From contig NZ_CP030028.1 in the NCBI RefSeq assembly GCF_003586445.1, positions 634,501-698,500 on the forward strand: a stretch of 64,000 nt of DNA, read 5' to 3'. The notes under the pieces are model-generated. The model did not search any database and was not told the origin of the DNA. It was given only the letters and a program-made list of their open reading frames with translations. Within the stretch, counting starts at the first letter, position 1. Every line of letters begins with the position of its first letter. This DNA comes from Bacillus sp. Y1. Its GTDB lineage: Bacteria; Bacillota; Bacilli; Bacillales; Cytobacillaceae. Below, in pieces: positions 41,453 to 42,761 of the stretch. The position numbers and the translations under genes are program-made.

Positions 41453-41615
41453 ATTCGATGTCTCGAGTTTCCACTCGGTTTTTAAACGCTTCACGTACGA
41501 CGAGAAATTCCTCATCGCCAATTGCGTCCTTCGTATGTTTTTCAACAAGAGTTCCCTCAGGAAACTTCCCAGGATGTCCCTTTTTCTTATGCTCAAAATC
41601 TTTTCCGCGACCCAT
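41451..41615 (-). CDS. Small charged protein, 54 aa
   Basis: Starts MGRGKDFEHKKKGHPGKFPE behind GAGGAAAGGAG, and ends in a negatively and positively charged mix (EEFLVVREAFKNRVETRDIE). No membrane segment, no Cys. No family recognised. The SD and the immediate terminator support a real gene; longer frames on either strand across this stretch are shadows. Confidence 0.72.
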   Translation of the reverse strand: MGRGKDFEHKKKGHPGKFPEGTLVEKHTKDAIGDEEFLVVREAFKNRVETRDIE

Positions 41616-41757
41616 TTTTCCACACTCCTTTCCTCAAAATTAGCTTTTCCGGAAAAATTCCCTTCTATGTAGAAAAGAAACAGGACAGTTCAGAAGGTTC
41701 ACGCATATTTATAGAAAGTAATGGGTTGTAAATTTTTAAAAAGGGAGGGGGATCCAA

Positions 41758-42318
41758 GTGACTATTGAATCTCAAAATGAACAACAGCCATTTTACGCGA
41801 CTCGAGACGATCAAGCTCCAACATTCTCGACAAGTGGATTTGTAAATGGAGAAATCAAAACATTTGAACTTGAGCAATATAAAGGGAAATGGCTTCTATT
41901 ATTTTTCTATCCAAGTGACTTTACACCCGTCTGAGAGACAGAACTAGCAGCGGTCGCTGCTGTTTACCCATATTTTCAGGCGATGAATGTGGAGATTTTG
42001 GCTATCAGCACAGATAGCATCTATTCACATAAAGTGTTTCGAGAAACCACTCCCTCTTTACAAAATGTCTACTACCCTATGTTGAGTGATAGAACTCATG
42101 CGATCTCCAAATCGTATCGAGTATTAGATGAGAAAACAGGAGCTGCTTTTAGAGCCTCTCTTTTTATAAATCCTGAACAGATCATCGTAGGTAAGCTCGT
42201 CTATCCGAGGGAAGTCGGACGAAACCTTTATGAACATGTAAGGCTTATGCAGGCACTTCAGCACGCAAAGAACACAGGTAAAGGTGTCCCAGCAAACTGG
42301 ATGCCTGATCAAAGTTAA
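41758..42318 (+). CDS. Candidate selenocysteine-containing peroxiredoxin (AhpC/TSA family), TGA read as Sec59
   Basis: A GTG start behind GGGAGGGGG opens a 186-residue frame interrupted only by TGA at 41932-41934. Upstream reads YKGKWLLLFFYPSDFTPV and downstream ETELAAVAAVYPYFQ, so the TGA stands exactly at the peroxidatic Cys of the PxxxTxxC motif (Pro52, Thr56, residue 59). The rest of the Prx1/AhpC fold is intact (ILAISTDS, YPMLSDRTHAISKSYRV, FRASLFINPEQ) up to GVPANWMPDQ, where the usual resolving Cys is Val. There is no Cys codon anywhere in the gene. A hairpin with a GGTC loop follows the TGA at SECIS distance. Selenocysteine is the best reading; a nonsense mutation of a Cys codon is the alternative. 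Confidence 0.8.
41941..41965 (+). promoter_or_regulatory. Putative bacterial SECIS element
   Basis: Stem AGCAGC / GCTGCT closing a GGTC apical loop (41952-41955), extended by a T-G pair and, past a bulged C, A-T pairs. 18 bases lie between the TGA and the second G of the loop. E. coli fdhF has a GGUC-type loop at nearly the same distance from its UGA. Loop sequence, bulge and spacing all fit SelB recognition. Confidence 0.7.
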
Positions 42319-42386
42319 AAAGCAAATGATGGAAAACTCCCTTGCTTTCCACTATACAAGGTATAATAAGGGAAGGAGGGATGTTC

Positions 42387-42761
42387 ATGGATTTTTCTCA
42401 AAGTATTTCAGAGGAACGCATTCGTAAGGCGATTGAAAATGGAGAATTCGATCATTTACCTGGCTACGGGAAACCGTTAAAGCTCGATGATTTATCTGCC
42501 ATTCCAGAGGAACTTCGTATGGCATATACCGTTCTGAAAAATGCGGGATATTCTCCAGAAGAACATGCACTCAGGCAGGAAATGATGTCTATAGAATCTC
42601 TTTTAAAAGCCTGTGATGACGATGATCAAAGACTTGGTCTTCAGAAAAAATTAAATGAAAAGATGTTGCGTTATAACAGTATGCTATCCAAACGCCGAGT
42701 GAATACAAACTCCTCTATTTTTAAAAATTATGAGCAAAAAATAAATAATAAGTTATTTTAA
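42387..42761 (+). CDS. DUF1992 (DnaJ-homologue C28-like) domain protein, YflB-like
   Basis: A 124-residue soluble protein. The GEFDHLPGYGKPLKLDD motif at about 19-35 is the DUF1992 signature, followed by PEELRMAYTVLKNAGYSPEE and a helical, charged C-terminus. The ATG at 42387 follows GGAAGGAGGG; the ATG two codons earlier is too close to the SD. Function unknown. Confidence 0.85.
   Translation: MDFSQSISEERIRKAIENGEFDHLPGYGKPLKLDDLSAIPEELRMAYTVLKNAGYSPEEHALRQEMMSIESLLKACDDDDQRLGLQKKLNEKMLRYNSMLSKRRVNTNSSIFKNYEQKINNKLF

Follow-up and report, generated by a model that had tools for sequence, protein, structure and literature searches.

Peroxiredoxins act through a catalytic cysteine, yet one peroxiredoxin-like frame in a 64,000-nucleotide stretch of Bacillus sp. 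Y1 DNA (the window) has an in-frame TGA where that cysteine is expected. Is this locus a decayed gene, or does it encode a complete selenoprotein? Positions 41758-42318 are very probably one complete gene for an AhpC/Prx1-type peroxiredoxin of 186 residues, whose catalytic selenocysteine (Sec) is encoded by the TGA at codon 59. This sequence-based reading draws on the frame itself, the peroxidatic location of the TGA, the Sec machinery of the host, the presence of the TGA in every close orthologue found, purifying selection both before and after that codon, and a hairpin that is conserved 3′ of it. An earlier note on the window had proposed a candidate selenoprotein, and the Sec machinery, the TGA in 99 of 99 orthologues, the two-sided selection and the retained hairpin all support that proposal.

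The reading frame and its database fragments

Re-reading of the locus bore out the earlier description of a 186-codon frame with a lone TGA at codon 59, the peroxidatic position. Direct translation gave this one TGA and neither a further stop nor any Cys codon. The frame begins with GTG and is terminated by TAA; the open frame upstream of the GTG (kgrgiq) contains no other start codon. The TGA stands in the context PSDFTPV-TGA-ETE, and the product matches the Pfam AhpC-TSA model (PF00578) with 118.7 bits over residues 18-144. A scan of positions 41600-42420 for sigma-70-type promoters found none, with 1.5 expected by chance. The features of the locus are collected in Table 1.

Table 1. Features of the predicted selenocysteine peroxiredoxin locus, in window coordinates
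Feature	Position	Strand	Remark
Shine-Dalgarno-like stretch GGGAGGGGG	41743..41751	+	6 nt 5′ of start codon; direct sequence reading
Full-length selenocysteine peroxiredoxin gene (predicted)	41758..42318	+	186 residues, then TAA
In-frame TGA (codon 59) at peroxidatic position, predicted selenocysteine	41932..41934	+	TGA in 99/99 orthologues
Predicted bacterial SECIS hairpin	41941..41965	+	GGUC apical loop (41952-41955); 17 nt from UGA
Arg132 codon	42151..42153	+	invariant 99/99
Val177 codon, place of usual C-terminal resolving Cys	42286..42288	+	in VPANW

ORF callers had been said to report only a fragment that starts in the second half of the gene, and a mechanical ORF listing indeed splits it, giving 41983-42318 (111 aa) and also 41758-41934 (58 aa). 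Public collections hold similar pieces. Cluster P0008 (37 member sequences) is a 111-aa piece that is 95% identical to the gene product, and all 15 NCBI-sourced entries of the subfamily that were found (56% identity or more) are C-terminal pieces of 111-137 aa. In other catalogues, at least 21 of 113 homologues have Trp at the catalytic position, as do two more picked up with a looser pattern; this Trp presumably stems from gene callers that use a code in which UGA is Trp. Because the identical stop codon is present in 99 of 99 close relatives, the short database fragments are likely to be wrong annotation. Correcting this error uncovers a likely Sec antioxidant enzyme in half of the family (96 of 193 genomes), which was overlooked because the NCBI-sourced entries are fragments and the other catalogues print Trp.

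Judged by this gene, the named records closest to the host come from Robertmurraya korlensis (strains at 94 and 89% identity) and from one Bacillus MAG (92%), so that the genus of the host is likely Robertmurraya. Its genome is a single contig of 5.03 Mb. A search of a phage collection with the gene gave no match.

Conservation of the TGA codon and of the hairpin 3′ of it

When 193 genomes of the same family were searched with the protein, 192 had a match at E 1e-20, and the matches fell into two tiers. The orthologue set consists of the 99 loci at E 1e-57 or better, which come from 96 genomes and 18 of 25 genera. The second tier consists of peroxiredoxins at 113 bits or less; among the matches listed, these had 32-45% identity and all but one had no stop. 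A divergent TGA peroxiredoxin of this tier (L139) was kept out of all counts on the 99 orthologues.

The earlier note had suggested aligning homologues to see whether residue 59 is U or Cys, and had reasoned that extra stops in close relatives would speak against a selenoprotein. In the alignment of close orthologues, codon 59 was TGA in 99 of 99 and Cys or any other codon in none, and a second stop was found in none of the 99. In a sample of 398 genomes of the class Bacilli, matches with an E of 1e-38 or below occurred in 15, and all 15 carried one TGA; three of these 15 genomes also belong to the 193-genome family set. The TGA codon aligned with the Cys of the host's own paralogue (L140, VCPTE) and, in two alignments, with that of peroxiredoxins in the PDB. 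Reading the interrupted frame as two genes was rejected on the relatives.

Across 294 pairs at moderate distance, pN/pS was 0.110 upstream of the TGA (residues 18-57) and 0.104 downstream of it (residues 72-185). The similar value downstream indicates that selection also maintains the protein sequence encoded 3′ of the stop. Thirty-two positions were invariant in all 99 orthologues, including T56, V58, position 59, T61, E62, LAAVA, STDS, R132 and GRN.

A hairpin with a GGTC loop at SECIS distance had been described before, and it is present 3′ of the UGA, with a minimum free energy (MFE) of -12.2 kcal/mol. Compared by hand with the limits for bacterial SECIS (bSECIS) elements in the legend of Figure 2 of PMC13188914, it falls within them: a loop of 3-9 nt and a stem of 4-16 bp, G in the first two loop positions, a distance of 16-37 nt from the UGA, and an MFE at or under -7.5 kcal/mol. 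Folding of the host-gene hairpin by itself was not significant (z = -1.68, with 13 of 200 shuffles as good), and 150 of 1000 synonymous resamples of the host gene were as stable as the native hairpin. Although folding alone is weak evidence, comparative data carry the reading of this hairpin as a putative SECIS element.

The five inner stem pairs were formed in 99 of 99 orthologues, and the stem pair at third codon positions was A-T in 33, G-C in 57 and G-T in 9, without a single mismatch. Codon 65 was GCG and codon 66 was GTC in 98 of 99 orthologues each, the sole exception at both being L099, in which both were changed; the background in the same open frames was 416 GCG among 1914 Ala codons and 495 GTC among 1693 Val codons. 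In codons 60-69, pS was 0.143, about one third of the values outside (0.410 and 0.428). All 99 orthologues had a hairpin MFE at or under -7.5, the mean being -12.5 as compared with -8.9 in synonymous resamples, and the exact stem was part of the minimum-energy fold in 81 of 99. A tree-based analysis of pair covariation, small and underpowered, gave at least 11 pair changes, with no pair pointing in the opposite direction (sign test, median p = 0.25). An Rfam scan of positions 41700-42400 returned two chance-level matches under the gathering scores and no SECIS family.

Selenocysteine machinery and the reading of the UGA

According to the earlier note, a host genome that lacked selA, selB, selC and selD would argue against Sec. 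The host genome contains selA (489.7 bits for PF03841 and 560.4 bits for TIGR00474), selB (382.7 bits; cut-off 242.25), selD (407.9 bits; cut-off 125) and a tRNA-Sec (58.9 bits; Rfam gathering score 47), whose anticodon was read by ARAGORN as TCA (UCA). The host selD gene has an in-frame TGA of its own (AGUGCKIG; L003:6221-7261, G000:C1:2744220-2745260, minus strand), at a place that we take to be the known Sec/Cys site of SelD, and the stem-loop 3′ of it had a z of -1.93. On account of this TGA, the selenophosphate synthetase of the host is also predicted to be a selenoprotein.

Within the family, SelA (TIGR00474 over its cut-off) was present in 172 of 193 genomes. The TGA peroxiredoxin was found in 96 of the 172 SelA-positive genomes and in 0 of the 21 SelA-negative ones (Fisher p = 2.8e-7, a value that ignores kinship, 13 of the 21 SelA-negative genomes being of one genus). 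In that genus (g21, G166-G178), both SelA and the TGA peroxiredoxin were absent from all 13 sampled genomes, a pattern that suggests that Sec decoding was lost throughout the genus. The Bacilli sample gave the gene in 15 of 86 SelA-positive and 0 of 312 SelA-negative genomes. This restricted distribution indicates that the gene tracks the Sec machinery, and that the machinery also occurs without the gene. A close orthologue was absent from 76 of the 172 SelA-positive family genomes, so one or more other Sec users must exist there. In the host genome, a search for a Sec formate dehydrogenase gave five Fdh-alpha model matches, none over the cut-off and none with an internal stop.

These results bear on two rival readings of the interrupted frame. 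If the locus were a pseudogene, a Cys peroxiredoxin would have been inactivated by one nonsense mutation from TGC or TGT to TGA. Such a history would explain a stop-interrupted frame that ORF calling breaks into fragments, and the intact Cys paralogue L140 could have rendered the gene dispensable. However, the same stop in all 99 orthologues of 96 genomes, none of them with a second stop, and a pN/pS of about 0.10 on either side of the TGA make this reading extremely improbable. Alternatively, the product could be full-length, the UGA being decoded not as Sec but as Trp or through leaky, near-cognate readthrough, as the Trp printed by the catalogues in at least 21 of 113 homologues would have it. 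Trp at the peroxidatic position would abolish peroxiredoxin chemistry. The gene is, moreover, confined to SelA genomes both in the family and in the Bacilli sample, and the SECIS-like hairpin is kept, which leaves little room for Trp or readthrough. Insertion of Sec at codon 59 is the reading that we prefer.

Selenoproteins are rarely kept by aerobic bacteria according to the portions of the review PMC13188914 that we drew on, and the corresponding portions of PMC5029168 report Sec users among aerobes too (40.4%). In the family studied here, SelA was present in 172 of 193 genomes.

Active site, reductant and relation to known peroxiredoxins

The host protein has the PxxxTxxU motif with an Arg: P52, T56, predicted U59 and R132, the last of which is presumably the active-site Arg, from peroxiredoxin chemistry. 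Thr56, position 59, Glu62 and Arg132 were invariant in 99 of 99 orthologues. The Pro of the motif (column 52) was kept in 73 of 99, and 26 of 99, the host protein not among them, had A, S or G. The structure model suggests that the AhpC fold is kept in the gene product; its mean pLDDT was 53 for residues 1-10 and 80 for residues 11-20.

Two earlier statements on the cysteines fared differently. Val at the usual place of the resolving Cys was confirmed as Val177; column 177 held V in 84, T in 7, I in 4, L in 2 and A in 2 of the 99 orthologues and Cys in none, and the host's own Cys paralogue (L140) reads LCPANW there. That the protein has no Cys at all holds for the host gene and 13 others, but it does not hold for the subfamily, since aligned position 13, close to the N-terminus, is Cys in 74 of 99 orthologues. 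The count of 14 Cys-free orthologues in 99, host gene included, is the stricter one; with a start guessed from the Shine-Dalgarno sequence it becomes 20, a figure that depends on the start (the open frame of L027 has a Cys). The Cys at position 13 could serve as a resolving thiol in those 74 relatives. The N-terminal Cys was present in one of five genomes of the same genus, and its presence and absence within one genus offer a ready natural comparison. With a natural Sec-only, Cys-free peroxiredoxin, one could ask directly whether a single chalcogen is enough and which external thiol completes the cycle.

In the catalytic scheme that we propose, SelB and Sec-tRNA would bind the hairpin and insert Sec at the UGA, and the selenolate would attack hydrogen peroxide or an alkyl hydroperoxide, yielding a selenenic acid. 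The selenenic acid would then be reduced by an external thiol, a step that is proposed because the chain has no resolving Cys of its own. The likeliest reductant, tentatively, is bacillithiol, maybe acting through a bacilliredoxin, and thioredoxin is a possible second. BshC, for bacillithiol synthesis, was found in the host genome (579.7 against a cut-off of 265.8), and no frame exceeded the cut-off for AhpF; the best, of 318 aa, reached 249.6 against 502.9 and covered model positions 207-511 only. Bacillithiol is our first guess because BshC is present and no AhpF is over the cut-off, a pattern that fits an external thiol and is no proof of it.

The partner and the function each have a rival reading that leaves Sec insertion in place. 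The partner could be thioredoxin, as for PrxU, or another flavoprotein-fed redoxin, and not bacillithiol. We give this alternative a chance only a little short of even: the nearest NCBIfam model, PrxU, is named thioredoxin-dependent, and the 318-aa frame and a second one of 337 aa align with the AhpF model in its C-terminal part alone, which is what one would expect of a thioredoxin reductase. Nevertheless, the protein lacks a resolving Cys with which to form an internal disulfide reducible by thioredoxin, and BshC is present, although neither point is decisive. As to function, the selenoprotein might be chiefly a peroxide sensor, a chaperone-like decamer or a selenium store, given that the Pro of PxxxTxxU is missing in 26 of 99 relatives and that no operon names a pathway, each of the four neighbours tested lying near the gene in at most 47 of 99 loci. 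This we consider improbable, though less so than the pseudogene or Trp readings, in view of the invariance of Thr56, position 59, Glu62 and Arg132 and of a modelled fold that is that of AhpC. A selenocysteine peroxidase remains the preferred reading.

The neighbourhood survey covered the four window neighbours at 99 loci, with flanks of ~1.5 kb, shorter at some contig ends. Near the peroxiredoxin gene, the upstream 54-aa gene was seen at 47 of 99 loci, the downstream DJC28-domain gene (PF09350) at 40, motA at 11 and topB at 7. An operon partner among these four was rejected, none going beyond 47 loci. The two largest other clusters of flanking frames (97 and 81 loci) were frames that overlap the gene or lie close to it. 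A redox partner may stand beside the gene in some genera.

PrxU (NF040737) was the best NCBIfam match of the host protein, with 154.2 bits over residues 7-184. Its curated cut-off of 270 bits lies above this score and above those of ten other homologues (155 to 247), so the host protein is not a PrxU by the NF040737 test. Like PrxU, it is a peroxiredoxin whose peroxidatic residue is (as predicted) Sec, but some members of the Bacilli branch, unlike PrxU, are without any Cys. PrxU is said to have been described in 2001, by Sohling et al., as a selenocysteine peroxiredoxin of Eubacterium acidaminophilum, which we take to be a strict anaerobe, as Robertmurraya presumably is not. The host protein also differs from AhpC, the typical 2-Cys peroxiredoxin (TIGR03137; 138.8 bits against a cut-off of 272), in having a predicted Sec for the peroxidatic Cys and Val177 for the resolving Cys (Cys in 0 of 99). 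If our mechanism holds, it is like the GPx4-like Sec peroxidases in that one Sec is reduced by a small thiol, as is generally known of them; they are a different protein family, and we do not claim membership.

Peroxiredoxins with Sec are a well-established family of bacterial selenoproteins, defined by PF00578 with TxxU in the tables consulted in PMC9312934 and PMC13188914, and the TxxU form also appears in the consulted text of the selenoprotein survey PMC1088965. The host locus shares PF00578, T56-P-V-U59 and a bSECIS-like hairpin with it. Sec peroxiredoxin was counted in 78 organisms in the relevant part of PMC5029168, and three selenoproteins were counted for Bacillales in that of PMC1794560. 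PMC7409299 lists, by name, a PrxU said to contain selenocysteine in Sulfobacillus thermotolerans, which belongs to another Bacillota group. The survey passages of PMC9312934, PMC13188914, PMC5029168 and PMC1088965 name no Bacillaceae case. Sec peroxiredoxins may already have been noted in this group, since the counts in PMC1794560 and PMC5029168 come without names in the passages concerned. Among the papers listed from a largely open-access literature, none dealt with a Sec peroxiredoxin from Robertmurraya, Neobacillus, Mesobacillus or their relatives.

Phylogenetic placement was taken from a quick tree of 77 rows, which sampled 32 of the 99 orthologues and, from outside the family, 9 of 12 relatives in the class, along with selected catalogue proteins and Cys paralogues; long branches were flagged among the Cys rows. 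The Bacilli Sec rows clustered in a single starred group of 41, next to a group of 9 metagenomic rows; together with one further row, the two gave a group of 51 (support 89, unstarred) that was Sec throughout and included no Cys row. We infer that the metagenomic rows with Trp at the catalytic place have TGA in their DNA. The Sec/Cys state changed at least three times over the tree. The most far-reaching reading is that of a Bacilli-wide, Sec-only peroxiredoxin lineage with no Cys version, in which the 14 Cys-free members of the 99 would be one-selenium, zero-thiol peroxidases that close their cycle with bacillithiol, a Bacillaceae counterpart of the GPx4 type. Taken as a whole, this reading is speculative and rather unlikely. 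If it were true, the lineage would give aerobic spore-formers a lasting reason to retain Sec decoding.

L139, the divergent TGA peroxiredoxin of another family genome (G007:C16:682507-683025; FTFVUATE, 39% identity), fell together with three metagenomic Sec rows into a mixed Sec/Cys group of the tree. Two TGA peroxiredoxin copies each were present in three family genomes, G051 (L031/L134), G095 (L099/L118) and G191 (L100/L133).
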